Below, one piece after another: positions 1,726 to 56,289 of a stretch of DNA of 64,000 nucleotides. This stretch comes from Methylobacterium terrae (lineage in GTDB: Bacteria; Pseudomonadota; Alphaproteobacteria; Rhizobiales; Beijerinckiaceae). The translations under genes were made by a program, and so were the position numbers. Below the pieces are notes generated by a model. That model made no database searches. It was not told where the DNA came from and saw only the letters and a list, made by a program, of their open reading frames with translations. The DNA lies in NCBI RefSeq assembly GCF_003173755.1, contig NZ_CP029553.1, positions 2,802,501-2,866,500 of the forward strand, written 5' to 3'. Every line of letters begins with the position of its first letter. Position 1 is the stretch's first letter.

Positions 1726-3594
1726 ATGCCGCTGAGTGCCGCCGCGCCGTCGGACAGCGCCCTGAGCACCGCCAAGGCCACGGCCCGCGCCGTCGATCTC
1801 GGGCCGCTGCCGGAATGGGACCTCACGGACCTCTATGCCGGCCTCGACGACCCGGCTTTCGCCGACGACATGGCCGCGGCCGAGGCCGAGTGCCGCGCCT
1901 TCGCCGAGAGCTACCGCGGCCGGATCGCCGCGCTCGCCGCGGGCGGGGACGCGACCGACCGCCTCGGCACCGCGGTCGCCGCCTACGAGGCGATCGAGGA
2001 TCGGCTGGGCCGGCTGATGTCCTATGCCGGCCTCGTCTATTCGGGCGACACCACCGATCCGGCCCGGGCGAAGTTCTACGGCGACACCCAGGAGCGCCTG
2101 ACCACGTCGGCGAGCGACCTCCTGTTCTTCACCCTGGAGCTCAACCGGGTCGAGGATGCGCTGATCGATCAGGCCGCCGCCCACCCGCCGCTCGCGCGCT
2201 ACCGTCCCTGGCTCGAGGATATCCGCCGCGAGAAGCCGCACCAGCTCAGCGACGAGGCGGAGAAGCTCTTCCTCGAGAAGTCGGTGACCGGGCGCGCGGC
2301 CTGGAACCGGCTGTTCGACGAGACCATCGCCTCCCTGCGCTTCCCCCTGCGCGGCGAGGAACTGACGCTCGAGCCGACCCTCAACAAGCTCCAGGACGCC
2401 GACGAGACCGTGCGCCGCGACGCGGCGGGGGCGCTGAGCACCGTGTTCCGGGCGAACCTGCGGGTGTTCACGCTCATCACCAACACGCTCGCCAAGGACA
2501 AGGAGATCTCCGACCGCTGGCGCGGCTTCACCGACGTCTCGGATGCCCGCCACCTCGCCAACCGGGTCGAGCGCGACACCGTCGAGGCCCTCGTCGCCGC
2601 CGTGCAGGCGGCCTATCCGCGCCTGTCGCACCGCTACTACACGCTGAAGGCGCGGTGGTTCGGCCGGGACGACCTGGCCTACTGGGACCGCAACGCGCCG
2701 CTGCCGAAGGTCGAGCAGCGCACCATCCCCTGGGCGGAGGCGCGCGAGACCGTGCTGTCGGCCTACGGCGCCTTCTCGCCGAGAATGGCCGAGATCGCCC
2801 GGCGCTTCTTCGACGGGGGCTGGATCGACGCGCCGGTGCGGCCCGGCAAGGCGCCGGGCGCCTTCGCCCACCCGACCGTGCCCTCGGCCCATCCCTTCGT
2901 GCTCGTCAACTACCAGGGCAAGCCGCGGGACGTGATGACCCTCGCCCACGAGCTCGGCCACGGCGTGCACCAGGTGCTGGCGGGCCCGAACGGGGCGCTC
3001 ATGGCCCCGACGCCGCTGACGCTCGCCGAGACCGCCAGCGTGTTCGGCGAGATGCTGACCTTCCGGCGCGTGCTGGAGGCGACCACCGACCCGGTGCAGC
3101 GCCGGGCGATGCTGGCCGCCAAGGTCGAGGACATGATCAACACGGTGGTGCGCCAGATCGCGTTCTACGCCTTCGAGCGCAAGGTCCACCTCGCCCGCCG
3201 CGAGGGCGAGCTGACGTCCGACAGGATCAACGCACTGTGGATGTCGGTGCAGGCCGAGAGCTTAGGGCCGGCGATCCGCCTCGACGAGGGCTACGAGCCG
3301 TACTGGGCCTACATCCCGCACTTCATCCACTCGCCGTTCTACGTCTACGCCTACGCCTTCGGCGACTGCCTGGTGAACTCGCTCTACGGCGTCTACCAGC
3401 GGGCGAGCGGCGACCCGGCGGCGGAAGGTGCCTTCGTCGAGCGCTACTTCGCGCTGCTCTCGGCGGGCGGCAGCAAGCCCTACGGCGAACTCCTGGCGCC
3501 GTTCGGACTGGATGCCCGCGATCCGGCCTTCTGGCAGATCGGCCTGTCGATGATCGAGGGGATGATCGCCGAGCTGGAGGCGATGGAGGCGTAG
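1726..3594 (+). CDS. pepF: oligoendopeptidase F (M3 family zinc metallopeptidase)
   Basis: Cytoplasmic peptidase of 622 residues that degrades short peptides. The zinc site HELGHGVHQ (HExxH) is visible about two thirds along, with the third ligand in the downstream ETASVFGE. The length matches the M3B PepF family. The frame is open upstream of 1726, but that ATG is chosen because the protein aligns from there and AGAGGAAC lies a short distance upstream. There is no signal peptide. It stands alone between the divergent response regulator and the transporter gene at 3698. A GC-rich inverted repeat at 3618-3645 follows the stop. Confidence 0.93.
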   Translation: MPLSAAAPSDSALSTAKATARAVDLGPLPEWDLTDLYAGLDDPAFADDMAAAEAECRAFAESYRGRIAALAAGGDATDRLGTAVAAYEAIEDRLGRLMSYAGLVYSGDTTDPARAKFYGDTQERLTTSASDLLFFTLELNRVEDALIDQAAAHPPLARYRPWLEDIRREKPHQLSDEAEKLFLEKSVTGRAAWNRLFDETIASLRFPLRGEELTLEPTLNKLQDADETVRRDAAGALSTVFRANLRVFTLITNTLAKDKEISDRWRGFTDVSDARHLANRVERDTVEALVAAVQAAYPRLSHRYYTLKARWFGRDDLAYWDRNAPLPKVEQRTIPWAEARETVLSAYGAFSPRMAEIARRFFDGGWIDAPVRPGKAPGAFAHPTVPSAHPFVLVNYQGKPRDVMTLAHELGHGVHQVLAGPNGALMAPTPLTLAETASVFGEMLTFRRVLEATTDPVQRRAMLAAKVEDMINTVVRQIAFYAFERKVHLARREGELTSDRINALWMSVQAESLGPAIRLDEGYEPYWAYIPHFIHSPFYVYAYAFGDCLVNSLYGVYQRASGDPAAEGAFVERYFALLSAGGSKPYGELLAPFGLDARDPAFWQIGLSMIEGMIAELEAMEA

Positions 3595-19210: not shown

Positions 19211-20542
19211 TCATTCGGCCGGCGCCAGATCGGCGGCGCCCTCGCGCCAGCGGGCGAAGCCGATCACCAGGATGCCGGCCAGGAGCTCCAGGCCGGCGAC
19301 GAAGTACAGGCCGTTGCTCGACGTGCCGGTCAGCGTGTTCGACAGGCCGACCACGTAGGGCGCGACGAAGCCCGCGAGGTTGCCGATCGAGTTGATCGCC
19401 GCGATGGCGCCCGCCGCGGCGGTGCCCGCCAGGAAGGTCTGCGGCAGCGACCAGAAGACCGGGAAGGCGGCGAGGATGCCGACCGCCGCGACCGTGAGGG
19501 CGAGGAAGGCCATGACCGCGTGGCCGATCAGCGCCCCGGTGGCGGCGAGACCCGCCGCGGCGATCAGGCTGGCGATCGCGCAGTGCAGCCGGCGCTCGCC
19601 GGTGCGGTCGGAATGCGCGCCGGTCCACACCATCGCGATCGTGCCGGCGATGAACGGCACCGCGGCGAGTAAGCCGATCGCGATCGCGCCCGTCACGCCG
19701 ATCTCCTTGATGATCGAGGGCGTCCAGAACGCGATCGTGGCGTTGCCGCTGACGATGCAGAAGTAGATCAGCGCGCAGAGCCAGACCCGGCCGTCGCGGA
19801 GCGCGGCCTTGAAGCTCGCCTCCTTGCCGGCGGCGCGCCCTTCCGCCTCGACGATCGCCGTCATCGCGGCGGCGACCTCCGGCTTGAGCCAGGCCGCGTC
19901 CTTCGGCCGGTCGGGCAGGAAGGCCAGCACCGCGGCGCCGGCGATCAGCGAGGGGATACCCTCGAGGATGAACAGCCACTGCCAGTTGGCCAGCCCCGAG
20001 ACGCCCCCCATCGTGCCCATGATCAGCCCGGCGAGCGGGCCGCCGACCACGCCCGCGATGGCGAAGGAGGTCATGAACAGGCCGTTGATGCGCGAGCGCT
20101 TCGCGCTCGGGAACCAGTAGGTCAGGTAGAGCACGACGCCGGGGAAGAACCCGGCCTCGAACACCCCGAGCAGGAAGCGGATGGCGTAGAACGCCCATTC
20201 CGACTGCACGAAGGCGAGGCTCATCGACGCGAGCCCCCACAGGATGGTGATCCGTGCCAGCGTCTTGCGGGCGCCGATGCGCTCCAGCAGCAGGTTGCTC
20301 GGCACCTCGAACAGGAAGTAGCCGATGAAGAAGATGCCGGCGCCGAAGCCGTAGACCGCCTCGCTGAACTTGAGGTCGGACAGCATCTGCAGCTTGGCGA
20401 AGCCGACGTTCACCCGGTCGATCCAGGCCAGGATGAACAGGAAGACCAGGAACGGGATCAGCCGGAGCGTCGCCCGGCGATAGCCCTCGTCCAACTCTCC
20501 GACGCCCAATCCTTGCGCGCTCACCGTATCCACCCTCGACAT
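19211..20542 (-). CDS. MFS transporter, anion:cation symporter type
   Basis: Inner-membrane importer of 443 residues with twelve helices. The N-terminal AWIDRVNVGFAKLQM and the loop after helix 2 (FEVPSNLLLERIGARK) are typical of the ACS family that imports tartrate, phthalate, galactarate and similar organic anions. The ATG at 20542 is the first sensible start. It is the first gene of the operon MFS, DUF2848, membrane protein, amidase, and is divergent from a GntR regulator with a palindrome in the shared promoter region. The substrate is likely a carboxylate, but its identity is not visible. Confidence 0.9.
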   Translation of the reverse strand: MSRVDTVSAQGLGVGELDEGYRRATLRLIPFLVFLFILAWIDRVNVGFAKLQMLSDLKFSEAVYGFGAGIFFIGYFLFEVPSNLLLERIGARKTLARITILWGLASMSLAFVQSEWAFYAIRFLLGVFEAGFFPGVVLYLTYWFPSAKRSRINGLFMTSFAIAGVVGGPLAGLIMGTMGGVSGLANWQWLFILEGIPSLIAGAAVLAFLPDRPKDAAWLKPEVAAAMTAIVEAEGRAAGKEASFKAALRDGRVWLCALIYFCIVSGNATIAFWTPSIIKEIGVTGAIAIGLLAAVPFIAGTIAMVWTGAHSDRTGERRLHCAIASLIAAAGLAATGALIGHAVMAFLALTVAAVGILAAFPVFWSLPQTFLAGTAAAGAIAAINSIGNLAGFVAPYVVGLSNTLTGTSSNGLYFVAGLELLAGILVIGFARWREGAADLAPAE

Positions 20543-20600
20543 CGCTCTTCTCCCGCGGTCCGCGAACCGGCCGCCCGGCGTGTGGTTCAGCAAGTACCAT

Positions 20601-20620
20601 GCCTGTGATATTTCACAAGC
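20601..20620. promoter_or_regulatory. palindromic operator in the MFS/GntR divergent promoter
   Basis: GCCTGTGATATTTCACAAGC is a near-perfect 20-base palindrome with TGTGA/TCACA arms (20604-20617) and only one unpaired outer position. It lies between the divergent MFS operon and the GntR gene, in locally AT-richer DNA. It is probably the binding site of the GntR regulator; a CRP-like site is less likely because the spacer is four bases. Confidence 0.6.
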
Positions 20621-20679
20621 CGTTCCAAGCGGGGCGTGCCCCGTGGTAAGGGGCTGGGCAGTCGAGCGGAGCTTTGTCG

Positions 20680-21327
20680 GTGGCGCAAACGCGTGCAGGA
20701 ACGTGCCCAATCGTGTCGCAGAACGAGCGCGCCTACCGGCGGCTCAAGGACGACATCGTCGCGTTGCGGCTGAAGCCCGGCGACGCCCTGAACGAGGCGG
20801 GCCTGTGCGCGGAGCTGGGTCTCGGCCGCACGCCGGTGAACCAGGCCCTGCACCGGCTGATGCACGAGGGGCTGGTGCGGATCCTGCCGCGCAAGGGCGT
20901 GCTGGTGCAGCCGCTCTCGATGGACGAATTCGCCCACCTGATCGAGGTGCGCCGGCTGACCGAGCCTCCTTGCGCGGCGCTCGCCGCGACGCGGATCGGG
21001 CCCGACGTCCTGGAACAGCTCGACGCCGTGCTGGCCGCCAGGACCGACGACCTCGACGCGATCCTCGACTCGGACCGACGCTTCCACGCGCTGATCGCCG
21101 AGGCCTCGGGCAACCGGGTCCTCGCCGAGGTGCTGGCCGGGCTGCACGGGCGCTCGGTGCGGTTCTGGGCGCTCTCGCTCGCCACCGGCCAGCACCTCGT
21201 CGAGGTGGCCGAGGAGCACGCCGTCATCCTGGACGCGCTGCGGCGGCGCGACGCGCCGGCGGCGGCGGCGGCGATGACCGCCCACATCGATTCCTTCGCC
21301 CGGACCCTGGCGTCGCGGCTGGGGTGA
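20680..21327 (+). CDS. GntR-family regulator with FCD ligand domain
   Basis: A 215-residue FadR-subfamily repressor. The N-terminal winged helix (about residues 15-80) contains ELGLGRTPVNQALHRLMHEGLV. The C-terminal FCD domain shows the metal/ligand residues of the family in DSDRRFHALIAEASGN, EEHAVILDAL and the late TAHI. The start is taken as GTG 20680, with GGAG eight bases upstream; TTG 20674 is possible. It is divergent from the MFS-amidase operon and upstream of a CitE-like gene, so it probably controls both using a small carboxylate as effector. Confidence 0.88.
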   Translation: MAQTRAGTCPIVSQNERAYRRLKDDIVALRLKPGDALNEAGLCAELGLGRTPVNQALHRLMHEGLVRILPRKGVLVQPLSMDEFAHLIEVRRLTEPPCAALAATRIGPDVLEQLDAVLAARTDDLDAILDSDRRFHALIAEASGNRVLAEVLAGLHGRSVRFWALSLATGQHLVEVAEEHAVILDALRRRDAPAAAAAMTAHIDSFARTLASRLG

Positions 21328-21382
21328 CGGGAGGCTCGCCCCGGGGCATAGATGCGCCGCCATCCGGGGAGTCACGCGACCG

Positions 21383-22252
21383 ATGACCGACATCCGCCCC
21401 CGCCGCAGCGCCCTCATGGTGCCGGCCACCGCGACCGCCCTCGCGGCGGCAAGGGCCGAGCCCGCCGATGCCCTGATCCTCGACCTCGCCGATTCGCTCT
21501 CTCCCGCCGACAAGGAGGCGGGGCGGGGTCTCCTCGCGGCCGCCCTGCGCGAGGGCGGCTTCTCCGCCGCCGAGGTGGTGGTGCGGGTCAACGGCCTCGA
21601 CACGCCCTGGGGCGAGGCCGACCTCGCGGCGGTGGCCGAGGGAGGGCCCGACGCCGTGCTGGTGCCGCGGGTCGAGGAGCCGGAGGACCTCGCCGGCATC
21701 GGCAGCCGCCTGCGCCGCCTCCACGCGCCCGAGCGGGTCCGGCTCTGGGCCTGCCTCGACACGCCGCTCGGCATCCTCTGCGCCGAGGCGGTGGCGAGCG
21801 CGGTGCGCGACGTCGATGCGCGGCTCGCCTGCCTCGTCGTCGATGCCGGGGCGCTCGCCCGCGAGGGGCAGCTGCCGTCGGGCGCACCCGAGGCGGGCCC
21901 GCTCCTGGCCTGGCTCGCCACGGCGCTCGCCGCCGCCCGCGCCCACGACCTCGACGTGCTGCTCGACCCCGCCGACCGCCTCGATATCGGCCGCGTTCGC
22001 GGCCTCGGCTTCGACGGGGCGGTGGTGGCCTCGCCCGCCGGCGCCCGCCGCGCCGAGGCGGCTTTCGCGCCGGACGCCGACTCGCTCGCGGCGGCCCGGG
22101 CCCTGGTGGCGGCCTTCGACGCGCCGGAGCACCGCGGTCAGGCGGGGATCGCCCATCTCGGCCGCACGATCCTGCGGCGCGAGGCCGACGAGGCGCGCCG
22201 GCTCGTGGCCCTCGCCGAGGCGGTGGCGCTCCGCCCGGGCCGCTCCGCATGA
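21383..22252 (+). CDS. HpcH/HpaI aldolase, citrate-lyase beta (CitE-like) protein
   Basis: A 289-residue CitE-like TIM-barrel protein. It has an N-terminal RRSALMVPATA, then DALILDLADSLSPADK, VVRVNGLDTPWG and PDAVLVPRVEEPEDL, and the C-terminal GFDGAVVASPAGARRAEAAF. Family members cleave or hydrolyse acyl-CoA thioesters such as malyl-CoA or citryl-CoA with Mg2+. An exact substrate cannot be given. The acidic residue normally in the DxED region appears as DLAD here, and the enzyme may be divergent. It is followed with ATGA overlap by the dUTPase-like gene. Confidence 0.82.
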   Translation: MTDIRPRRSALMVPATATALAAARAEPADALILDLADSLSPADKEAGRGLLAAALREGGFSAAEVVVRVNGLDTPWGEADLAAVAEGGPDAVLVPRVEEPEDLAGIGSRLRRLHAPERVRLWACLDTPLGILCAEAVASAVRDVDARLACLVVDAGALAREGQLPSGAPEAGPLLAWLATALAAARAHDLDVLLDPADRLDIGRVRGLGFDGAVVASPAGARRAEAAFAPDADSLAAARALVAAFDAPEHRGQAGIAHLGRTILRREADEARRLVALAEAVALRPGRSA

Positions 22253-22743
22253 GCGGCCCCGATTTGAGTGAGCTCGACGTCGCGGTGCGGATCCTCGATT
22301 CCCGCCTGCCGGGCTGGGGCTTTCCCCGTTGGGGCTCCTCGCTCGCGGCCGGGCTCGACCTCCACGCCTGTCTCGACGCGCCCGCGATCCTGGCGCCGCA
22401 GGGCCCGCCGCTGCTGATCCCGGCGGGCTTCGCCCTGGCGATCCGCGATTCCCGCTGGTGCGCGATGGTCTATCCGCGCTCCGGCCTCGGCCACCGCGAG
22501 GGGCTGGTGCTCGGCAACACCGTCGGGGTGATCGACGCCGATTACGAGGGCCCGCTGATGATCTCGGCCTGGAACCGCAACCCGCCGGGACACGCGCCGG
22601 TCACCGTGCAGCCGGGGGAGCGCATCGCGCAGCTCGTCTTCACCCGGGTGGCGCGCCCGTCCCTGCGGGTCGTCGACGCATTCCCGGAGGCCGAGGACGG
22701 GGCCCGCGGCGTCGGCGGCTTCGGCTCCACCGGCCGCGGCTGA
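22249..22743 (+). CDS. dut: dUTP diphosphatase-like protein
   Basis: A 164-residue trimeric-dUTPase-fold protein that would hydrolyse dUTP to dUMP and pyrophosphate. All five motifs are present: AAGLDLHA (1), PRSGLG (2), GVIDADYEGP (3), GERIAQLVF (4) and RGVGGFGSTG (5). The N-terminus has a tryptophan-containing insertion (LPGWGFPRWGS) that differs from the E. coli enzyme. The start ATG overlaps the preceding stop (ATGA). Co-expression with a CitE-like lyase looks incidental. Confidence 0.88.
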   Translation: MSGPDLSELDVAVRILDSRLPGWGFPRWGSSLAAGLDLHACLDAPAILAPQGPPLLIPAGFALAIRDSRWCAMVYPRSGLGHREGLVLGNTVGVIDADYEGPLMISAWNRNPPGHAPVTVQPGERIAQLVFTRVARPSLRVVDAFPEAEDGARGVGGFGSTGRG

Positions 22744-22751
22744 GGACCCGG

Positions 22752-23258
22752 GTGGACGCGCTCGCGCCCCATCCGGCCGGCCCGCACCGGCTCGCGGGTT
22801 CGGTGCTGGCGCCGCCGCGCCTCGTCCTCGCGGTGGCCGCGATGGTCGACATCGCGCTGCACGCCAGGCCCCAGCCGGTGAGCGCCAAGGCGCTGGCCGT
22901 CCGCCACGCCCTGCCGCCGCGCCACCTCGAGGCGGTGCTCCAGGCGCTGGTGCATCACGGCCTGCTCAAGGGCCTGCGGGGGCCGCACGGGGGCTACGAG
23001 CTCGCCCGCGAGCGGCGCCGCATCAGCGCCGGCGACATCGCCCGGGCGGTGCTCGGAACGGGCGCCCCGGGGAGCACCGCAGCGAGCCCCGGCGCCGCGC
23101 CCGACTCCCTCGCCGACCTCGTCGTCGCGCCCCTGGTGGCGGAAGCCGCCGGGGCCTACCTTGCGGCACTCGATTCGGTGACGGTCGAGGATCTCTGCGG
23201 CCGGGCGGAGGCGGCCCAGGTCGCGGGTCCGCGGGCCGGCCCCGATTTCACGATCTAA
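22752..23258 (+). CDS. Rrf2-like winged-helix regulator
   Basis: A 168-residue Rrf2-type DNA-binding protein: helices in about residues 22-75, and the wing GLRGPHGGYELARERRRISAGDIARAV, which is diagnostic. The Fe-S cysteine cluster of IscR/NsrR is absent (one late cysteine only), so it does not sense through a cluster. The start is GTG 22752 preceded by GAGGA. It lies nine bases after the dUTPase gene and is probably co-transcribed with it. The target genes are unknown. Confidence 0.8.
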   Translation: MDALAPHPAGPHRLAGSVLAPPRLVLAVAAMVDIALHARPQPVSAKALAVRHALPPRHLEAVLQALVHHGLLKGLRGPHGGYELARERRRISAGDIARAVLGTGAPGSTAASPGAAPDSLADLVVAPLVAEAAGAYLAALDSVTVEDLCGRAEAAQVAGPRAGPDFTI

Positions 23259-23431
23259 GCATTCTGGCCACGACCCCGGCGATAGAGAGGAGAACTCATT
23301 CGCGATCAAGGTGTTGCGTCGAACGACAGGTTAGTGTCGAACGGCTCCGGTCGTGTCGAAACTTAAAGAACGCTTTATCAAATTGCGGCAGTTTGAGCCA
23401 TCATCCGGTGCGGAAAGGAACTCCGGGGACC

Positions 23432-24481
23432 ATGACCAACGCAGCCGATCCCGCCGTCGTGGTCGTCACGGCCCGGCCCGACCCCGGCGGGCTGACGCGG
23501 CTGTTCGCGGCGGGCGTCCCGGTCCTCGCCGTGCCGGAAGCGCAGGCCGCCCTCGGCGCCCTCGCGCAGCGCGCGGCGGACCTCGTGCTGATCGAGGCCG
23601 GCCCCGGCCTCGACGCGACCGCGCTGATCCGCTCCTTGCGCCTGCGGCCCCACCTCGCCCACACCTCGATCCTGCTGATCGCCGACGGCGACCCGGCGGA
23701 GACCCGCCGCCGGGCGCTCGAGGCCGGTGCCACCGACGTGGTGCTGCCGCCCCTCGACGCCTCGGACCTGTCCCTGCGCGGCCGCAACCTGATCGCGCTG
23801 TCCCGCGCGCAGGACGCGGTGGAGAGCCAGGCCCGGACGCTCGCCCGCGAGGTGGAGCGCGCCGCGGCCGAGAGCCAGGAGCGCGAGCGCGAGATCATCC
23901 GCCGCCTGATGCTGGCCGCCGAGTTCCGCGACGACCAGGCCGGCGACCACCTGACGCGCGTCGCCGGCTGCGTGCTCGCCATCGCGGACGGGCTCGGCCT
24001 GTCGGAGGAGGAGGGGAACGACATCGCACTCGCCTCCACCATGCACGACATCGGCAAGATCGGCGTCGCCGACTCGATCCTGCACAAGCCCGGGCCGCTG
24101 ACCGAGCCCGAGCGCTGCGAGATGATGCAGCACGCGCTGCGCGGCTACCGCATGCTGCACGACAGCCCGTCGCGCCTGCTGCGCCTCGCCGCCGAGATCG
24201 CGCTCACCCACCACGAGCGCTGGGACGGCGCCGGCTACCCGCAAGGCCTCAAGGGCGCCGAGATCCCGCTGCCCGGCCGCATCACCGCCGTCGCCGACGT
24301 GTTCGACGCCCTGATCTCGGCCCGGGTCTACAAGCCCGGCTGGCCGTTGGAGCGGGCGCGGCGGTTCCTCGAGGAGCAGTCGGGGGCGCATTTCGACCCG
24401 GATTGCGTCGCCGCCTTCCTGTCGCGGTGGGAGGACGTGGTGGCGCTGGTGGAGGAGCGGCCGGCGGATCGGGCGGCGTGA
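23432..24481 (+). CDS. HD-GYP cyclic-di-GMP phosphodiesterase with degenerate receiver
   Basis: A 349-residue RpfG-like protein. The N-terminal receiver-like domain (1-125) has glutamate E55 where the phospho-acceptor aspartate is expected (LVLIEAGPG), and VVLPP where the conserved lysine-proline should be, so phosphorylation is unlikely. A coiled linker spans about 125-160. The HD-GYP domain (160-345) is complete: HD at 205-206 in MHDIGKIG and HHERWDGAGYP at 260-270. It should hydrolyse c-di-GMP. The ATG at 23432 follows GGAAAGGAA at moderate spacing. It stands alone. Confidence 0.9.
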   Translation: MTNAADPAVVVVTARPDPGGLTRLFAAGVPVLAVPEAQAALGALAQRAADLVLIEAGPGLDATALIRSLRLRPHLAHTSILLIADGDPAETRRRALEAGATDVVLPPLDASDLSLRGRNLIALSRAQDAVESQARTLAREVERAAAESQEREREIIRRLMLAAEFRDDQAGDHLTRVAGCVLAIADGLGLSEEEGNDIALASTMHDIGKIGVADSILHKPGPLTEPERCEMMQHALRGYRMLHDSPSRLLRLAAEIALTHHERWDGAGYPQGLKGAEIPLPGRITAVADVFDALISARVYKPGWPLERARRFLEEQSGAHFDPDCVAAFLSRWEDVVALVEERPADRAA

Positions 24482-24493
24482 GGCGAGGGGCGC

Positions 24494-25134
24494 TCACCGC
24501 CCCATCGTGCCGGGCTCGCCCTCGAACGGTCCAACGAATCTCCTCGCGATCCAGCCGCCGTAGAAGCCGCCCAGCTGCGGCGCGACCCGCTCCTCGCCGA
24601 CGAAGCCGCCGTCCATCGGCCCGGCATGGAACGCGACGTGACCGGCGAGCGCCGCGAAGGCTGCGGTCGGCGCCGGGCAAGCCCGGGCCGCCCGCTCCGC
24701 CCAGCCCCGCGTTCCGATCACGTCCAATGCCGCCGCACCGTCGAACGGATCCGTTCGAGGGCGCTGGCTAAGCCCGAACGGACGTCGGCGCTGATGCGCC
24801 GGACGCCTTGGTATCCCGGCCGCCTTGGTATCGACGTGTCGATGCCAAGGCGCGAGGGTATAAGTCGGCGGCCCGCCCCTTCCATTCGCAGACCGAATCG
24901 CTGCCGGCCGCAAACCAGCGCTCCCGGCACGATGTCCGCGGGATGCAGGCAGTAGGTCGGCGAGCGGGACGTCTCCAGCACGCGCCAGCCCCGCACCGCG
25001 TCGGCGATGATGATCCCGCCAAGCACGACGCGCAGCCGTTCCGGCACCGGTTCTAGGCGGGGTGGACGGGGATGGTCCCAGACGCTTTCCTGGCCGGTGC
25101 CGGCTGGATCGGGATCGGAGCGGCCTCGCTGCAT
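24494..25134 (-). pseudogene. DUF427 gene broken by frameshift and palindromic insertion
   Basis: Three reading frames on the minus strand carry successive pieces of one DUF427 protein. The N-terminal part (ESVWDHPRPPRLEPVPERLR, then GIIIADAVRGWRVLETS) starts at an ATG at 25134. A one-base shift near 24920 moves SVCEWKGRAA into the next frame. The C-terminal part (FAALAGHVAFHAGPMDGG, then QLGGFYGGWIARRFVGPF) is in a third frame up to 24494. Between the second and third pieces lies about 110-120 bases of nested palindromes (24741-24852) that does not match the family. The normal gene would be about 180-190 codons. It lies just downstream of the FRG gene. Confidence 0.82.
24741..24852. repeat. 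nested-palindrome element inside the DUF427 pseudogene
   Basis: Four structures sit side by side: the perfect 18-base palindrome TCGAACGGATCCGTTCGA (24741-24758); the hairpin CGGCGC-TGAT-GCGCCG (24786-24801); a direct copy CGCCTTGGTATC (24804-24815); and a 32-base hairpin with arms at 24821-24835 and 24838-24852 differing at one pair. The block interrupts DUF427 homology, so it looks like an inserted palindromic (REP/MITE-like) element. I see no other copy in the window. Confidence 0.6.
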
Positions 25135-25182
25135 CTTGGACCCTCGTCGCGTGGTGCATCGCATGCCGGCACGCGACGGGGT

Positions 25183-26310
25183 TCACTGCTCCCGAAACCG
25201 CTTGGGAGCGCCTTCGAGCTCGGCCAGATCAAGTTCCAAGGTCGTTCCATCTTGTTCTATCATGGCCCCTACGGTGAACGCTCCATAAGACCAAGTTTTC
25301 AGCTCGGCTTTTCCATCTTTTGGCGATATTTTTCTGATAGGATTCTTGAAACTGTCATGAAGATAAAAGACCACTTTGCCAGTCAGCTTCTTCTCCGTTT
25401 CCGATGTGAGCAGCAGATTGGTTTGGTACCAATCTTGCTCGATTTCTCTGACCTTTGCAGTCAGCGCCCATCCATTGCGGCGCGGCAGCAAGCCCCACTG
25501 ACCCTTCTGGGGATCACGCGGATTTATCTTCGTCTTGGGTATTTCGGTTTCAGTCGACACGCGCTGTACCCTGGAAGGCGTGCCATCCCCGCCGGGCGGA
25601 CCCTGAAACGGCGGGCGCGGCATCAGCCGAAAGCCCTGCAGGGCGACCAAGCGACGGGACAATCCATCGAGATCGGGAAATATGGATGCGTGATGAAATC
25701 CCAAAGTATCGAGCTTTCGACGAAAATCCATCTTAGTTGCTTTATCGATGATGATTTGCGTGATGCCTGGAGGACGATATGTGGCCTCTGGATCGGGATG
25801 AATGGTGAACAGTCCACGTTGCGAAACGAGTCGGGGTGTCACGTATCCTGGATAAAAGAACGCGACCTCCTTCACCGCAAATGGATCGGCGCCGAGATCA
25901 CGAGCCTCGAGGGGTCTTGGTGCGATGTAAATTCCGGCATCTTCATCATCATTGCCCCAAATTGCAAAAAATAGTGAGACATACGGGGACTCTGACCAGT
26001 CCAATAGTCTCGTGGGTATCCCATAATGTTGCGCCAAAGCCAGCCACTCCCACATATCGACGGGCCGGCTCGACAGCATTGGGATCGACTCGCGTCTGAA
26101 CTGCGCAAAGATCTCTTGCTCCTGGGGCAAGAAGCTGGTGCCACCGCGGGCACGACCGATTGTTGGCACGAGACCGTAGCGCGCCGACGTTACGCCCCGA
26201 AATAACCAGGTGCCATCAAGATGTATTTCGATCTCCTTCTGCAAATCAGACCAATTTTCGACTCGGACTCTCGGCCAAATTGGAATGGCATCCTCAGCTT
26301 TTATTGACAT
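25183..26310 (-). CDS. FRG-domain protein with C-terminal pYEATS-like domain
   Basis: A 375-residue cytoplasmic protein. The N-terminal FRG domain (about 20-220) shows the naming motif in WLFRGVTSARYGLVPTIGR (FRG at 37-39) and the family block QHYGIPTRLLDW (94-105). A linker of about 60 residues is rich in proline and arginine. The last ~90 residues (VVFYLHDSFKNPIRKIS, then SYGAFTVGAMIEQDGTTLEL) match the prokaryotic YEATS-like domain that occurs fused to effector domains in conflict-system proteins. The ATG at 26310 has AAGGAG six bases upstream. Codon and base use are clearly less GC-rich than the neighbours, which points to recent transfer. No partner gene is adjacent. Confidence 0.82.
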   Translation of the reverse strand: MSIKAEDAIPIWPRVRVENWSDLQKEIEIHLDGTWLFRGVTSARYGLVPTIGRARGGTSFLPQEQEIFAQFRRESIPMLSSRPVDMWEWLALAQHYGIPTRLLDWSESPYVSLFFAIWGNDDEDAGIYIAPRPLEARDLGADPFAVKEVAFFYPGYVTPRLVSQRGLFTIHPDPEATYRPPGITQIIIDKATKMDFRRKLDTLGFHHASIFPDLDGLSRRLVALQGFRLMPRPPFQGPPGGDGTPSRVQRVSTETEIPKTKINPRDPQKGQWGLLPRRNGWALTAKVREIEQDWYQTNLLLTSETEKKLTGKVVFYLHDSFKNPIRKISPKDGKAELKTWSYGAFTVGAMIEQDGTTLELDLAELEGAPKRFREQ

Positions 26311-27000
26311 AGATTGCTCCTTATTATCTTGCGTGACGCGACGAAGATGCAGACGGGGCAATAATGCGTATCGACAACGCTGCGACATGGGCCGTTCTGG
26401 TGGAGGCCGAATCGGCTCTGCTGCCGACATCGATAATCTGATTCGAGCGATCATCGCCGATGGGTGCAGCGATTTCTAGTAAATTAATGCGGAATAGCCG
26501 TACCGCTTGTTTGACGAGGTTGGGGCGAGCAACTCGCGTTGACCAGGCGTTGGATGAGACCGGGCGCAGGCCTGACATGCCGCCGTCCATGGATCTTTGA
26601 CCGAAGCCCCGTAACGCCACTGCGCTTCAAGCTGGTCGAAGGCCTCAGGCGCCCTCGCATTCGAGTTGATTCATCAAGCTCAAAGCAGGCTTCAGGATGA
26701 AGCTGAGGATTTGGTTTGTGCTATTTACAATATTGCGGATGATTCTGGGAAATTTATAATTCATAATTTATAGTTGAGTTTTTATCTGTAATTTTAATTC
26801 ATTATATAATCATACATTTTTATGATTACGGCAACGCACTCAATTCACAGATAAAACGTCAGCACGCACTCTGACTGTATACCAACCATTATGCCAGATG
26901 GTCTGCGAGACTATGCCTGAGAGTAGAGGCGGCAACCCTCTCGCACTGGTAAAGGCCGACGGTCGTTCACGCCATAGCCCTTTCAAGTCCGCAATCATGA
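26311..27000. other. AT-rich intergenic region upstream of the FRG gene
   Basis: About 700 bases without a supportable gene. 26690-26890 is strikingly AT-rich for this genome (runs such as TTTATAATTCATAATTTATA) and looks like foreign DNA or the far end of an inserted segment. 26480-26670 has an open minus-strand stretch without a start codon that may be a gene remnant. The promoter of the FRG gene should lie in the first few hundred bases. Confidence 0.5.
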
Positions 27001-27024
27001 GGCCGGGGCGCTGGCGCCCCGGCC
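27001..27024 (-). terminator. hairpin terminator of the fab operon
   Basis: A perfect inverted repeat, GGCCGGGGCGC and GCGCCCCGGCC with a two-base loop, begins 13 bases after the fabI stop. No T-run follows, as is common for GC-rich genomes. Confidence 0.5.
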
Positions 27025-27036
27025 CCGCATCACCCC

Positions 27037-27864
27037 TCAGGCGTCAGTCACCCCCGCCGCATCCTGCGCCTTCAGCACGTCCGGGCGCGGCATCGAGATG
27101 ATGTTGTAGCCCGAATCGACGAAGTGGACCTCGCCGGTGACGCTGCCCGACAGCGGCGACAGCAGGTAGAGGGCCGAGCCGCCGATATCGTCGAGGTTGG
27201 CGGTGCGGCGAAGCGGGGCGTGGGCGGCCTGGTGGTTGTACATCAGGCGGGCATCGGCGATGCCGGCGCCGGCGAGCGTGCGGACCGGGCCGGCCGAGAG
27301 GGCGTTGACCCGGATCCCTTGCGGGCCGAGATCGGCCGCGAGGTAGCGCACCGAGGCCTCGAGCGCCGCTTTCGCGAGGCCCATGACGTTGTAGTTCGGC
27401 ATGACGCGGGTCGCGCCGCCATAGGTGAGCGTCAGCAGGGCGCCGCCGGGGCGCATCCGCCTGGCCGCCCGCTGCGCCACCTCGGTGAACGAGAAGCACG
27501 AGATCACCATCGTGCGGGAAAAGTTCTCCCGGGTGGTGACGTCGACGTAGCGGCCCTTGAGCTGCGACTTGTCGGAGAAGCCGATGGCGTGGACGACGAA
27601 GTCCAGCCCCTCGGGCCAGGCCTCGTCGAGGGCCGCGAAGGTCGCGTCGACGGTGCCCAGGTCCTCGACGTCGCAGGGGAAGACCAGCGAGGAGCCGAGG
27701 GTCCCGGCCAGCGGCCCGACCCGGCGGCCCAGCGCCTCGCCCTGGTAGGTGAAGGCCAGTTCGGCGCCCTGGCCTGCCAGGGCCCGGGCGATGCCCCAGG
27801 CGATGGAGTGGTCGTTCGCGACGCCCATCACGAGCCCGCGCTTGCCTGCCATCAAACCCGTCAC
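27037..27864 (-). CDS. fabI: enoyl-[acyl-carrier-protein] reductase (NADH)
   Basis: Short-chain dehydrogenase of 275 residues that reduces trans-2-enoyl-ACP in the last step of each fatty-acid elongation cycle. It shows the FabI N-terminus GKRGLVMGVANDHSIAWGIA and the catalytic Tyr-x6-Lys as YNVMGLAK, and it ends in a long C-terminal tail. The start is GTG 27864 with GGAGGA six bases upstream; ATG 27852 is the alternative but is poorly spaced. It is the last gene of fabA-fabB-fabI. FabI is the triclosan/isoniazid-class target. Confidence 0.94.
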   Translation of the reverse strand: MTGLMAGKRGLVMGVANDHSIAWGIARALAGQGAELAFTYQGEALGRRVGPLAGTLGSSLVFPCDVEDLGTVDATFAALDEAWPEGLDFVVHAIGFSDKSQLKGRYVDVTTRENFSRTMVISCFSFTEVAQRAARRMRPGGALLTLTYGGATRVMPNYNVMGLAKAALEASVRYLAADLGPQGIRVNALSAGPVRTLAGAGIADARLMYNHQAAHAPLRRTANLDDIGGSALYLLSPLSGSVTGEVHFVDSGYNIISMPRPDVLKAQDAAGVTDA

Positions 27865-27941
27865 GCCCGATCCTCCGCTGTCATGGATGGACCGGGCGTT
27901 TACGCGGCGGGCGGGCTCCTGTCCACGCCGCGGCGGGGGTA

Positions 27942-29168
27942 TCAGGCGTCGACGTGCTTGAGCACCAGCGTGGCGTTGGTGCCGCCGAAGCCGAACGAGT
28001 TGCTGAGCACGTGGCCGAGCGTCGCGTCGTCCTTGCGGGCGCGCAGGATCGGCATGTCGGCGAAGGCCGGGTCGAGCTCGTCGATGTGGGCGCTCTCGCA
28101 GATGAAGCCGTTGTTCATCATCAGCAGCGAGTAGATCGCCTCCTGCACGCCGGTGGCGCCGAGCGAGTGGCCGGTCAGCGACTTGGTGGCGGCGATCGGC
28201 GGGCAGGACTCGCCGGTCCCGAACACCTCGCGGATCGCCTCGATCTCCTTGTCGTCGCCGACGGGGGTCGAGGTCGCGTGGGGATTGATGTAGTCGATCT
28301 TCGCGCCCTTCAGGCCCTCGATCGCCTGGCGCATGCAGCGCACCGCGCCCTCGCCGGACGGCGCCACCATGTCGTGGCCGTCCGAGGTGGCACCGTAGCC
28401 CGCGACCTCGCCGTAGATGCGCGCGCCGCGGGCGCGGGCATGCTCCAGCTCCTCCAGCACCAGCACGCCGGCGCCGCCCGCGATGACGAAGCCGTCCCGC
28501 GCCTTGTCGTAGGCGCGCGAGGCCCGCGAGGGGGTGTCGTTGTACTTCGAGGACATCGCCCCCATGGCGTCGAACAGGACCGACAGGGTCCAGTCCAGCT
28601 CCTCGCAGCCGCCGGCGAAGATGATGTCCTGGCGCCCGCCCTGGATGATCTCGGCGGCGTTGCCGATGCAGTGGTTCGAGGTCGCGCAGGCCGACGAGAT
28701 CGAGTAGTTCACGCCCCGGATCTTGAACCAGGTCGCCAGCGTCGCCGACGCCGTCGAGGACATCGCCTTCGGCACCGCGAAGGGTCCGACGCGCTTCGGC
28801 CCCTTGGCGCGGGCGATGTCGGCCGCCTCGACGAGCGCCCGGGTCGAGGGACCGCCCGAGCCCATGATGATGCCGGTGCGCTCGTGAGAGACCTCGGCCT
28901 GCTCGAGGCCGGCATCGCGGATCGCCTGCTCCATCGCGACGTGGTTCCAGGCGGTGCCGCCGCCGTGGAAGCGCATCGCGCGCCGGTCCACGACCTCCTC
29001 CGCGTCGAGGGTGGGCGCGCCCTGGACCTGGCTGCGGAAGCCGTGGGCCGCGAAGTCCTCGGCGCGCGAGATGCCGGACCGCGCCTCGCGCAGGGACGCC
29101 AGCACCTCCTGGGTGGAATTGCCGATGGACGAGACGATGCCCATCCCGGTGATCGCCACACGCCTCAT
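27942..29168 (-). CDS. fabB: 3-oxoacyl-ACP synthase I
   Basis: Condensing enzyme of 408 residues that extends acyl-ACP with malonyl-ACP and, with FabA, is needed for unsaturated fatty acids. The active-site cysteine lies in [11 protein letters not shown], the two histidines in [11 protein letters not shown] and [12 protein letters not shown], and the C-terminal GFGGTNA closes the thiolase fold. The ATG at 29168 begins the usual [13 protein letters not shown]. It lies between fabA and fabI on the same strand. Confidence 0.95.
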
Positions 29169-29355
29169 GATCGTCGGAACCCTCCGGAGCGGCGCCGTGG
29201 GAACGTGCGCCCGCGGGCGTTCTCGCCACGCGGGTGTCACCTAGGCGCTCGATGCCGCAATCTCAACCGCCCACCGGGGGAAAGGGTCCCGGCGGGCCTT
29301 CGCCCGCACCCGGCGGGCCTCAGAGCCCGCACAGGGCGGGACCGGTGCCGGGGCT

Positions 29356-29910
29356 TCAGCCGCCCGCGGGGGCCGCAGCCTGGAACAGGCCGACGCGCAG
29401 GTCCTTGGCCTCGTAGACGCGCTCGCCGTCGGCCTCGAGCCAGCCGTCGGCGATGCCCAGCACCAGGCGGCCCTGGCGCACCCGCTTCAGGTCGACGCCG
29501 TAGACCACTTTCTTGACGCTCGGCAGCACCTGGCCGGCGAGCTTCACCTCGCCGACGCCGAGCGCCCGGCCGCGGCCCGCGGAGCCGAGCCAGCCGAGGT
29601 GGAAGCCCACCATCTGCCACAGGGCGTCGAGGCCGAGGCAGCCCGGCATCACGGGGTCGCCCTGGAAGTGGCAGGGGAAGAACCAGAGATCGGGCCGCAC
29701 GTCGAGCTCGGCCACGACGTGGCCCTTGCCGTAGGCGCCGCCGTCGCGGCCGATCGAGGTGATGCGGTCGAACATCAGCATCGGCGGCAGCGGCAGCTGG
29801 GCGTTGCCGACGCCGAACATCTCGCCGCGGCCGCAGGCCAGCAGGTCCTCGTAGGAGAAGTGCGAGGGCCGGCTCGGGGCGTCGGGGGCGGAGGTCTGGT
29901 CGGCGGACAT
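29356..29910 (-). CDS. fabA: 3-hydroxydecanoyl-ACP dehydratase/isomerase
   Basis: A 184-residue hotdog-fold enzyme that dehydrates 3-hydroxydecanoyl-ACP and isomerises it to the cis-3 form, the branch point to unsaturated fatty acids. The catalytic histidine is in [20 protein letters not shown], and [11 protein letters not shown] follows as in the family. The ATG at 29910 is chosen although the frame is open upstream. It is the first gene of the fabA-fabB-fabI operon and divergent from irr across 234 bases, an arrangement I associate with Rhizobiales. No clear iron-control box is visible between them. Confidence 0.95.
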
Positions 29911-30144
29911 GTGCGGGGCGAATTCCTCGTGTGCGATGCCGCCGACGTACCGCAGGGTACCGGAAGCGGCGGGGTGGCGCCTCGTTAACACAGGCCCCGG
30001 GACTGTTCAAAGCCGACCGAAGGCCCTAGTCTGTAACGCTTCTGATCTGCGCCTCGACGGCCGCGGTCGGGTTGCGGGGCGGGGGCGGGACGCCTATAAC
30101 GGCGCTTATCATTGTCGCCGTCTAACGAGTCGATAGTTCCGCTG

Positions 30145-30645
30145 ATGAACGATCTGTCGCCCCTGCGCGCCGTGCTCGGCGCCCGCGTCCCGGCCCTCGA
30201 GACCGGCGCCGCCGGTCAGCGGCGCGGCTGCCCGCTCTCGGAGCTGCGCGACCGTCTGCGCCGCGCCGGCCTGCGGCCGACCCGGCAGCGCCTGTCCCTC
30301 GGCTGGCTGCTGTTCGGCAAGGGCGACCGTCACCTCACCGCCGAGATGCTGTACGACGAGGCGATGCGGGCGAAGGTCCCGGTCTCGCTCGCGACCGTCT
30401 ACAACACGCTGCACCAGTTCACCGAGGCCGGCCTGCTGCGCCAGCTCGCGCTCGACGGCTCCAAGGCCTATTTCGACACCAACCCGAGCGAGCACCACCA
30501 CTTCTTCCTGGAGGAGGAGGGACAGGTGCTCGACATGCCGGATTGCGGCATCACCGTCGATTCGCTGCCCCAGGCCCCCGAGGGCATGGAGATCGCCGGC
30601 GTCGAGGTGATCGTGCGCCTGCGCCGCCGGACCGGCCGGGCCTGA
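30145..30645 (+). CDS. irr: Irr-type iron/heme response regulator (Fur family)
   Basis: A 166-residue Fur-family regulator that represses or activates iron and heme genes when iron is low and is degraded on heme binding. A Cys-Pro heme-type motif (GCPLSEL, cysteine 29) precedes the DNA-binding domain (RLRRAGLRPTRQRLSLGWLL). HLTAEMLYDEA and the triple histidine SEHHHFF (117-119) are Irr hallmarks. The C-terminal zinc cysteines of Fur are missing. The ATG at 30145 fits. It is followed by a strong terminator. Confidence 0.9.
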   Translation: MNDLSPLRAVLGARVPALETGAAGQRRGCPLSELRDRLRRAGLRPTRQRLSLGWLLFGKGDRHLTAEMLYDEAMRAKVPVSLATVYNTLHQFTEAGLLRQLALDGSKAYFDTNPSEHHHFFLEEEGQVLDMPDCGITVDSLPQAPEGMEIAGVEVIVRLRRRTGRA

Positions 30646-30679
30646 CACCGAGCCGTTCCCAAGTCTTCTCGCACGCTTT

Positions 30680-30720
30680 CGAGAAGGCCCGCGCTCCTGC
30701 CCGGAGCGCGGGCCTTCTCG
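30680..30720 (+). terminator. strong bidirectional hairpin terminator after irr
   Basis: Perfect 18-base arms with a five-base loop (GAGAAGGCCCGCGCTCC at 30681-30697 pairs with 30703-30719, plus one outer pair), followed by GTTTCG. It sits between the converging irr and SH3 genes and can serve both. Confidence 0.85.
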
Positions 30721-30768
30721 TTTCGCGTGGACCGGAGACAGGGCGGTGCGACCCGCCCGGCTCCCGCG

Positions 30769-31398
30769 TCACTCCACCTTCTCGTCCGGGTAGACGCCCC
30801 AGAGCCGGTCCTGGCGCATGTAGCCGTCGACGTCGCCGCGCTTCTGCGGCAGCGCCACGATGAGGCGGCACCAGGTCTTGTCGCAGGTCTTCACGCTGGC
30901 GATCACCCCGGCCTGGAGCTGGGCCACGACGCCGCTGCCTGCATCGGCCCGGTCGTAAAGCGGCACCGGCGCGCCCTTGTCGGCACCGCGGTTGAGCACC
31001 ACGGCGGTGCGCCGGCCCGACAGCAGGGAGTGCAGCACCCAGCCCTCGGTGCCCTCGGAATCGCGAATGCGGCGCCAGGTCTCGTACTCGGCGATGATCT
31101 CGACCGGCAGGCCGGCGCGCTGGAACACCCACAGGGTGCGGTGGTCCTTGGACGGCCCCTCGCGCAGGTTCACCCGGTCGGTCTTCAGGCTGACGTAGCG
31201 CGGCAGCGGCAGCTTCGTCGCCGGACCGATCGTGACGCCGATCTCGCCGGGGGCGGGATTGGCGGCCGGGGCGGGCGGCGCGGCGGCCGCCGGCCCGGCG
31301 AGGACCAGGGTGGCCGAGAGCAGGGCGGCCGAGAGCAGGGCGGGCAGGAGCGTGGCCGAACGGAGAGTGGCGGGGATCTGGCGCGGGTGGAGCATCAC
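30769..31398 (-). CDS. secreted SH3-domain protein
   Basis: A 209-residue protein with a signal peptide (hydrophobic stretch TLLPALLSAALLSATLVLAG, cleavage near AAAA) and bacterial SH3-type repeats. VSLKTDRVNLREGPSKDHR and WVFQRAGLPVEIIAEYETW are typical of the SH3_4 family; the second copy covers VVLNRGADKGAPVPLYDRA. It is a periplasmic protein probably binding peptidoglycan. The signal-peptide codons contain two adjacent copies of a 15-base repeat, giving ALLSA-ALLSA. The function is otherwise unknown. Confidence 0.82.
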   Translation of the reverse strand: MMLHPRQIPATLRSATLLPALLSAALLSATLVLAGPAAAAPPAPAANPAPGEIGVTIGPATKLPLPRYVSLKTDRVNLREGPSKDHRTLWVFQRAGLPVEIIAEYETWRRIRDSEGTEGWVLHSLLSGRRTAVVLNRGADKGAPVPLYDRADAGSGVVAQLQAGVIASVKTCDKTWCRLIVALPQKRGDVDGYMRQDRLWGVYPDEKVE

Positions 31399-31681
31399 GA
31401 TCGGTCTCCCATCCGGTGGCGCGCGGGCCGCGGCGCGGATTGTCTTCCGGTCGGCCTCTGCTAGAGAAGCCGCCGGACGTCGGGCCCCGGCCGGATCGAG
31501 GGGTGCGTAACCGCCCCTATCGCCGACGCATGGTTAACGGGGCGTAACGACGCCTGTGGCCTGCACGAAGGCGGGGCTTTTCGTCGGGTCGCCGCGTCGC
31601 CTATCGTGCGGCGCTAAGCGTCGCGTCGCGTGTCGCGCGGGCCGGCCGGAATCGGGGCCGTCCGCGGGCGAGGGAGGGGTC

Positions 31682-32683
31682 ATGTCGTTGAAGCGCAAGC
31701 CGCTCGTGGTGGTCACCCGGCGCCTGCCGGACGTCGTGGAGACGCGGATGCGCGAATTGTTCGACGCGCGCCTCAACCACGAGGATACGCCCCTGACGGG
31801 CGGCGCCCTGGCGCAGGCCCTGCAGGAGGCCGACGTGCTGGTGCCGACGGTCACGGACGAGATCGACGCCTCGCTCCTCGCCCAGGCCGGGCCGAACCTG
31901 CGCCTGATCGCCAATTTCGGCAACGGCGTCGACCACATCGACGTCGGGGTGGCGCTCCAGCGCGGCATCACGGTCACCAACACGCCGGGCGTGCTGACCG
32001 AGGACACTGCCGACATGACCATGGCGCTGATCCTCTCGGTGGCGCGCCGGGTCACCGAGGGCGCCCGGATCATCCCGGACGACGCCTGGACCGGCGGCTG
32101 GTCGCCGACCTGGATGCTCGGCCGCCGCATCACCGGCAAGCGCCTCGGCATCGTCGGCATGGGCCGCATCGGCCAGGCGCTGGCGCGGCGCGCCAAGGCC
32201 TTCGGCCTCTCGATCCACTACCACAACCGCCGCCGCGTCGGCGCCCGGATCGAGAGCGACCTCGAGGCGACCTACTGGGAGTCCCTCGACCAGATGCTGG
32301 CGCGGGTCGACATCGTGTCGGTCAACTGCCCGCACACCCCGGCCACCTACCACCTGCTCTCGGCCCGGCGCCTGAAGCTGCTCAAGCCCGAGGCGGTGGT
32401 GGTCAACACCGCCCGCGGCGAGGTGATCGACGAGACCGCGCTCGCCCGCCTGATCGAGGTCGGCGACATCGCGGGCGCCGGCCTCGACGTGTTCGAGCAG
32501 GAGCCGGCGGTGAGCCCGCGCCTCGTCAAGCTGGCCAAGGCCGGCAAGGTCGTGCTGCTGCCCCACATGGGCTCGGCCACCCACGAGAGCCGCGTCGACA
32601 TGGGCGAGAAGGTCATCATCAACATCAAGACCTTCCTCGACGGCCACCGGCCGCCGGACCGGATCCTGCCCAGCATGCTGTGA
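31682..32683 (+). CDS. D-2-hydroxyacid dehydrogenase (glyoxylate/hydroxypyruvate reductase type)
   Basis: NAD(P)-dependent reductase of 333 residues. It shows the substrate loop NFGNGVDHID, the Rossmann motif GIVGMGRIGQALARRAKAFG, the catalytic arginine in VNTARGEVID, glutamate in DVFEQEP and histidine in LLPHMGSATHESR. This is the GyaR/D-glycerate-dehydrogenase branch, which reduces glyoxylate or hydroxypyruvate. It could feed the serine cycle in a methylotroph, but whether it is the main hydroxypyruvate reductase cannot be told. The ATG at 31682 lies after a GAGGG. Confidence 0.92.
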   Translation: MSLKRKPLVVVTRRLPDVVETRMRELFDARLNHEDTPLTGGALAQALQEADVLVPTVTDEIDASLLAQAGPNLRLIANFGNGVDHIDVGVALQRGITVTNTPGVLTEDTADMTMALILSVARRVTEGARIIPDDAWTGGWSPTWMLGRRITGKRLGIVGMGRIGQALARRAKAFGLSIHYHNRRRVGARIESDLEATYWESLDQMLARVDIVSVNCPHTPATYHLLSARRLKLLKPEAVVVNTARGEVIDETALARLIEVGDIAGAGLDVFEQEPAVSPRLVKLAKAGKVVLLPHMGSATHESRVDMGEKVIINIKTFLDGHRPPDRILPSML

Positions 32684-54540: not shown

Positions 54541-54782
54541 CCGGCGGCGAGGCCTACAAGCAGAAGCTCCTCACAGACGACGGGCTGGACGCGGCGATCT
54601 CGGCCTATCTCGCCGACCCGTCGAAGCCGACCGTGCTCGAGATCGGGAAGGGGAGCCTCGACGTCGCCGCGGCCGTCCTGGCGCATCCGTGGTCGGCTGG
54701 TGAGCTGGCGGTGGAGGATGCAACGCCGGCCCGGCGGCGGAATGCGGTGAGGACCGCGATCCTGCTTGGGAGGTTGGCGTGA
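54537..54782 (+). CDS. small prophage protein (81 residues)
   Basis: A soluble, mostly helical protein. Its C-terminal half (AVLAHPWSAGELAVEDATPA, RRRNAVRTAILLGRLA) is clearly related to the 42-residue product of the gene at 55470 beyond the SGNH gene. Its start overlaps the preceding stop (ATGA) and its stop overlaps the SGNH GTG. No family is recognised. Confidence 0.62.
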   Translation: MTGGEAYKQKLLTDDGLDAAISAYLADPSKPTVLEIGKGSLDVAAAVLAHPWSAGELAVEDATPARRRNAVRTAILLGRLA

Positions 54783-55447: not shown

Positions 55448-55469
55448 GCGGCGAGCAGGAGTTTGAGCG

Positions 55470-55598
55470 ATGGCGTCCGCCTACTCCGCCGTCCTGGCCC
55501 ACGCCTACGCCGTCGAGGTGCTGGCGCGGGAGGGCGTGACGGGGCCGCAGCGGCGGCACGCGGTGAAGACGGCGGTCCTGTTGGCGCCGGTCGGATGA
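55470..55598 (+). CDS. 42-residue relative of the 81-residue protein
   Basis: A small protein (AVLAHAYAVEVLAREGVTGP, QRRHAVKTAVLLAPVG) that matches the C-terminal half of the product at 54537 in order and spacing. It lies on the far side of the low-GC SGNH gene, so the pair brackets it. It may be a truncated duplicate or the displaced remainder of an older copy. A further 23-codon frame overlaps its stop (55595) but has little support. Confidence 0.5.
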   Translation: MASAYSAVLAHAYAVEVLAREGVTGPQRRHAVKTAVLLAPVG

Positions 55599-55742
55599 GC
55601 GTCCCGGCCTATCTCGCCCTCACCTCCACCCTGGTCCTATCCTGCGCCCGGGGTGCGGTGGCGTGATCGAGGCGGGCGGCGCGGCGCCTCGACGATAGGA
55701 AGCGCTGGTGACCCACCCTCCTGCCGATCCCGAGCCCCTGCG

Positions 55743-56060: not shown

Positions 56061-56289
56061 TTTTGCTCCAGCCGATAAATGGCGGGAGCCAACGCTCTCA
56101 CTCATAGACGTGCCAATTAATCGTTGTCTACGATTGCCGTCGATCTAACACACCGGCCGATGCCGCGCTCACCCTTTTGTTACGCAGATTGATTTCTGTC
56201 CTTTATGTCGCACCCTGCGAGAAGTTGATCGGTTTGGGGGCGTCCGCATTCCGCGCTGAGGCCCGCTGGGCCACAACGATGCGAAGGCT

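Follow-up and report, generated by a model that had tools for sequence, protein, structure and literature searches.

The window analysed here, a 64,000-nucleotide stretch of the Methylobacterium terrae contig NZ_CP029553.1, carries on its minus strand an intact frame (26310-25183; ATG at 26310, stop codon at 25185-25183) for a protein of 375 amino acids that joins an N-terminal FRG domain to a C-terminal pYEATS (prokaryotic YEATS) domain. The original prediction, made from the DNA alone, had given the correct coordinates, 25183..26310, without a strand. It had also described a lone gene of host-atypical composition with its own ribosome-binding site, and each of these features was recovered: no partner adjoins the gene, its G+C content (GC) is 0.53 (0.56 at third positions) against 0.71 for the window, and AAGGAG lies just upstream on the same strand, at 26322-26317. 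The upstream DNA (26311..27017) is AT-rich, with 50% GC; it holds no Rfam match (a scan of 22000-30000 returned no Rfam element at all), and a consensus scan of 24900-27100 found no sigma-70-like promoter. Within these ~700 bp, GC is lowest (27-37%) at 26701-26900, and an imperfect inverted repeat of 29 nt lies at 26775-26861.

The FRG domain is assigned by PF08867, which matches residues 35-124 (25939-26208) with 89.5 bits against a cut-off of 25 (E 2.9e-25), and the motifs originally claimed are present as F37-R38-G39 and HYGIPTRLLDW (residues 95-105). As modelled, the domain extends over residues 8-226 (25633..26289), and the PADLOC candidate single-protein model PDC-S15 matches residues 16-221 at E 1.4e-64. 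The protein shares with the FRG family and PDC-S15 scores far above the cut-off, the FRG and HYGxPTRLLDW motifs and the status of a single-gene candidate; it differs in its added C-terminal pYEATS. In the fold search with the modelled FRG domain, 48 of the 50 matches listed are what we take to be ADP-ribosyltransferases (ARTs), and the predicted fold looks nearest to this group. In the aligned ranges, the model from residue 32 onward overlies cholera A1 from residue 1 onward. Because the starts of these ranges coincide, R38, which is nearly invariant across the 23 FRG sequences of alignment A4 (built without the weak FRG matches L079, L080 and L082), probably sits at the position of cholera A1 Arg7, which is the Arg that ARTs conserve in their first core strand. 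A4 showed no Glu, invariant or nearly so, that could serve as the catalytic Glu of R-S-E type ARTs; Q164 is nearly invariant and, judging from the range ends, would fall in the catalytic-Glu region. PDC-S15 itself is an unproven candidate defence system (PMC12482510). A passage of another paper places Frg in the ART superfamily as a possible NADase effector and also lists it among enzymes generating NAD+-derived signals (PMC9503650); a predicted immune effector role of Frg is already in print there, and the FRG domain might also produce an NAD+-derived signal. No assay of the Frg domain was found in the literature searched for 'FRG domain'.

The C-terminal assignment also held: PF20305 matches residues 298-362 (25225-25419) with 61.8 bits against a cut-off of 26.9 (E 5.6e-17), and the YEATS fold spans residues 279-374 of the predicted structure. 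Searched by sequence against the PDB, the full-length protein gave only weak rows (E 0.53 or worse, YEATS first), and fold comparison was therefore used. With the C-terminal model, 49 of the 50 matches listed carry YEATS-protein names, the remaining one being a chain of the SRCAP complex; the best 50 from Foldseek are all YEATS-named except one chain of a polymerase complex. A fold search of BFVD gave nothing at E 0.001 or better. Since the predicted structure independently returns YEATS folds, the C-terminal match is better than chance. Conservation reaches beyond the Pfam model, the unit running for ~113 residues from DPxKGxxGG to LELDL...P..FR (residues 263-375; 25186..25524), and follows a linker predicted to be disordered (residues 227-264; 25519..25632; pLDDT <50). 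It is C-terminal in 33 of 33 loci, with 0-5 residues after it; this set excludes L042 and L043, the weakest matches to our model A1 in the scan of the order, which are weak and not C-terminal.

Across the 33 modules, the putative pocket residues F321, S/T320 and G343 are present in all and H318 in 32, and position 342 is aromatic in 26. In AF9, the aromatics F59 and Y78 stack on either side of the acyl amide, and at the second of them a WG motif is found in most YEATS domains (PMC6212594). This aromatic sandwich of acyl-lysine readers was found in the window protein, with F321 aligned to AF9 F59 and Y342 assigned to Y78 by its aromatic-Gly motif. Position 342 is Tyr in 10 of 10 FRG-pYEATS proteins, whereas just 2 of 7 grouped SIR2-pYEATS rows (3 of 8 if L089 is added) have an aromatic there. 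By this measure, FRG-class modules resemble functional readers and those of the SIR2 class often do not; we regard this split as the most useful new detail of the analysis. A tree of the 33 modules needs one change to separate the FRG from the SIR2 label, with a support of 56/88; most of its inner branches are weak, the FRG rows do not form one single group as drawn, and L089 was not counted in the SIR2 group there. Compared with the eukaryotic readers AF9, ENL, GAS41 and Taf14, the module has the same fold, an equivalent of F59 and an aromatic-Gly pair like the WG motif; unlike them, it is bacterial, fused to an enzyme-like domain and only 15-21% identical to the eukaryotic YEATS structures among the matches listed.

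Burroughs and Aravind are said to have described pYEATS in 2020 as a predicted sensor. That paper lay outside the literature we searched, in which neither 'pYEATS' nor 'prokaryotic YEATS' was found. The domain, its C-terminal place behind an effector-like part and its YEATS fold are all kept here; what differs is that the effector is FRG and that the genome yielded no second pYEATS, by PF20305 or by A1, and no dedicated protease. The effector-plus-sensor logic originally proposed is supported by the range of partners, as FRG, SIR2, membrane and trypsin-like parts all occur in front of this one C-terminal module, and by the defence-model matches of several pYEATS neighbours. FRG N-termini occur at 10 loci (the window, L019-L025, L044 and L045); among these, the Rhodoplanes homologue L022 is interrupted by an in-frame stop and L025 is truncated at the end of its contig. 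SIR2_2 N-termini were identified by Pfam at L026, L029, L036 and L046, by similarity or annotation at L035, L083 and L087, and by eye at L089. Other N-termini have membrane-spanning segments by hydropathy count, L050 has a Trypsin_2 peptidase and a C-terminal part that matches A1 and not the Pfam pYEATS model, and those of L084, L086 and L088 have no firm assignment.

The holders of pYEATS include Pseudomonadota, Bacteroidota, Gemmatimonadota, Planctomycetota and Nitrospirota, and its spread is patchy. At family level, PF20305 turned up in 2 of 199 genomes; at order level, 7 of 397 genomes passed the threshold for the extended module, 5 of them clearly (both counts take in the own genome), while 15 of 199 had FRG itself. 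A scan of 99 relatives, the own genome among them, gave no full-length match in any of the other 98. Within the genus, the nearest relatives that have FRG alone (L002-L007, with frames of 268-284 amino acids) stop after this domain, and the SIR2-pYEATS protein of the congener G035 is nearly identical to one from Methylobacterium sp. WSM2598 (L012, L036). On plasmids, pYEATS was found on 11 of 72,556 records, 9 of them conjugative; 9 of the 11 were inspected (Ensifer, the second S. meliloti and a second place in CP050566.1 were left out), and the two longest matches, on conjugative Rhizobium plasmids, share 55% and 52% identity with the window protein. The module was found neither in viral contigs by pattern scan nor among phage records; with the FRG part on its own, 6 of 50,697 phage records gave a match.

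The gene has apparently been picked up from outside, as originally proposed, and its low GC, its absence from the matching site of congeners and its patchy spread all point this way. In comparison with the congener G012, a stretch of 1,888 bp (25130..27017, GC 0.525) is unmatched, and the congener G015 lacks 24533-27032; both share the two flanks and carry other genes between them, named by eye as L,D-transpeptidase-like in one and low-GC cupin-like in the other. The site, next to a fabI-like gene, is variable, no two of three congeners having the same gene there (L061 in G015, 2394-3131, minus strand; L062 in G012, about 2472-3200, minus strand). Of the flanks described in the original prediction, the AT-rich DNA and the interrupted neighbour gene were both recovered, DUF427 being that prediction's own label for the latter; the gene contains a dispersed repeat (24703..24869) with 56 matches listed in the own genome and is not interrupted by it in G012. 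The GC of the FRG-pYEATS gene, 53%, is near that of its Rhizobium plasmid relatives, whose 55-56% is a usual value on those plasmids. Origin from a known plasmid was sought by DNA comparison, and only a 314-bp stretch of the gene matched one Rhizobium plasmid, at 69%. There is no tRNA within 20000-32000 that could have served as an integration site, no convincing flanking repeat was found that would explain the insertion, and no integrase was noticed in nearby frames.

Homologues in stable core contexts with vertical inheritance had been named in advance as evidence against the original prediction, and half of this picture was found. Four Bradyrhizobium genomes (L019, L020, L021 and L023) carry FRG-pYEATS at one shared site, which counts against easy mobility. 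On the other side, the gene there is more divergent than its neighbours (60-61% identity for L023 against L019 or L020, versus 77-96%) and lower in GC (0.57-0.61 versus 0.65-0.66 for the surroundings). A protein of 454-455 amino acids precedes FRG-pYEATS at two of the four loci (L020, 5681-7042; L021, 3137-4501), and its L020 copy has no Pfam or PADLOC match.

Gene neighbourhoods were compared between 28 non-redundant pYEATS loci (108 proteins within 2 kb of the gene, window excluded) and 17 FRG-only control loci (72 proteins, taken up to 2.5 kb from the domain match). Left out of these counts were L019, L021 and L023 (same site as L020, so that a single one of the four Bradyrhizobium loci went through the Pfam scan, with clustering used to compare the rest), L048, one contig-cut neighbour of L088, L018, L011, L012 and L038-L041 (same genes as other loci), and the FRG-only loci L091, L092 and L093. 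Plasmid loci with an annotation were read by its coordinates, because the simple gene caller got annotated genes wrong. By Pfam, the pYEATS neighbours include 4 subtilases (S8), 3 CHAT and 2 caspase (C14) proteases and 4 LCAT-like hydrolases. No protease stands among the best 25 of 125 Pfam families of the control, which was re-checked with our own protease panel because only these 25 were listed; the panel, which was drawn from pYEATS loci and so leans towards them, found 0 in the 72 control proteins and matches at 10 of 28 pYEATS loci, a weak L028 match being uncounted. Taken as 9 of 28 pYEATS loci against 0 of 17 FRG-only loci, the difference has a Fisher p of 0.008. FRG-only genes also lie near defence genes, with methylases, GmrSD and other restriction genes among the matches listed; as the proteases are seen near pYEATS and not in the control, it is pYEATS and not FRG that they accompany. 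The PADLOC families near pYEATS (best 25 of 32) include subtilase, caspase, MBL-fold (LmuA, Avs1a, RTasMBL), Dsr2, reverse-transcriptase UG6, BrxA and PDC-S15 models; these tallies are of models rather than proteins, some of them unspecific, as mad3 and regulator models match in the window too. Around the window gene itself only regulator-type matches were seen: the 48 other predicted proteins of the window match only such PADLOC models at E 1e-10, and none matches the protease panel.

In the SIR2 class, 6 of 8 loci (L026, with a subtilase 2.4 kb away, L029, L035, L046, L083 and L087) have a protease within 2.5 kb, and none was found at L036 and L089; proteases also lie beside L084, L086 and L088. 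The SIR2-pYEATS proteins are like the window protein in placing the module behind a likely NAD+-consuming effector, and differ in having HPTF in place of HD[S/T]F, a mostly non-aromatic position 342 and a protease close by. Proteins of ~1,030 amino acids adjoin the SIR2-pYEATS genes of L046, L035 and L087, likely forming a two-gene system; by Pfam, those of L046 and L087 contain an LCAT-like hydrolase, a Peptidase_M17_N stretch and a C-terminal CHAT protease. On the M. extorquens CM4 plasmid pCMU01 (L083, 4948-11105), SIR2-pYEATS lies beside an MBL-fold hydrolase and a subtilase, and another gene annotated as SIR2-family and an IS5-like transposase are found there as well. Among the FRG-pYEATS loci, 2 of 10 have a protease (L025 could be viewed on one side only), and both are conjugative Rhizobium plasmids with subtilase and MBL-fold genes; the subtilase lies in two frames at L044 (11122-13072) and in one on the other plasmid (L045).

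Our data suggest a model whereby the window gene encodes a stand-alone, horizontally acquired, two-domain protein of immune type, and we put the probability of this whole chain at roughly 0.55. In the resting cell, the C-terminal pYEATS would act as sensor and gate and hold the FRG effector silent; altered ligand binding would free FRG across the flexible linker, and the freed domain would act on NAD+ by hydrolysis, ADP-ribose transfer or the making of an NAD+-derived signal, so that growth stops or the infected cell dies. The candidate ligand is an acylated lysine, or a mimic of one, on a host or phage protein; we consider it the most likely ligand, speculatively, because the YEATS-reader sandwich is retained in the FRG class. 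The protein appears to be an uncommon but intact version of a kind of defence protein that had been predicted before. A fuller version, in which the YEATS domain reads phage-altered lysine acylation and frees an ART-fold effector on NAD+, while much of the SIR2 class has traded its pocket for activation by subtilase, CHAT or caspase, is doubtful as a joint claim; if true, a reader of histone-mark type would serve as a bacterial infection sensor. Because the sandwich is conserved in the FRG class, acylation reading is a sharp and cheap prediction, and lone FRG-pYEATS is about the simplest object that joins two questions, whether FRG uses NAD+ and whether bacterial YEATS domains read acylation.

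The main rival holds that the protein is an orphan executioner: a protease (subtilase, CHAT or caspase) would sense infection and cut or recruit the effector-pYEATS protein, and the window gene would have lost its protease or would rely on a house protease cutting the linker. The excess of proteases near pYEATS (9 proteins), the subtilase and MBL-fold genes on the Rhizobium plasmids and the disordered linker all fit this, but only 2 of 10 FRG-pYEATS loci have such a protease, and removal of pYEATS by cleavage is hard to square with its conserved pocket. A partner in trans was also sought in the own genome: a subtilase query gave only two partial matches (575-643 at 46%; 403-611 at 31%) and a CHAT-LCAT query, run without a positive control genome, gave none. 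We regard this rival as a serious contender that is nonetheless unlikely. A non-immune role, as a regulatory ADP-ribosylation or NAD+ signalling protein answering the acylation state of the cell itself (acetyl-phosphate or acyl-CoA stress), would agree with the stable Bradyrhizobium site and with a lone gene whose reader residues are conserved; the patchy spread, plasmid carriage, atypical GC and swapping with SIR2, trypsin-like and membrane N-termini make it improbable. That the gene is a recent, useless passenger heading for decay is suggested by the repeat in the neighbouring gene and by the stop in the Rhodoplanes homologue, but is quite improbable for an intact frame of 375 amino acids that retains a ribosome-binding site and its nearly invariant residues. 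Least probable of all is a toxin of a plasmid-maintenance or toxin-antitoxin-like unit that lacks its antitoxin and has pYEATS as a built-in inhibitor. The position of the two longest plasmid matches on conjugative Rhizobium plasmids and the FRG-like effector domain speak for it; against it, clustering of predicted genes of at least 60 amino acids finds no small partner shared by the FRG-pYEATS loci beyond the common Bradyrhizobium surroundings, and chromosomal homologues persist alone.

Recruitment of the kind seen in EAD systems, which likewise add one module to many effectors, was also considered. EADs work through homotypic contact with a core protein, according to a passage of Kaur et al. 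2021 (PMC8195603), and such recruitment is unsupported here because only one pYEATS, and thus no second copy on a core protein, was found in the own genome. Elsewhere in the window, a second low-GC patch at 54779-56105, with frames of GC 0.46-0.54, one of them starting MTWLIFGDSHIG, is possibly further acquired DNA, and small membrane proteins at 58574-60366, holin-like by eye, may be a phage remnant.
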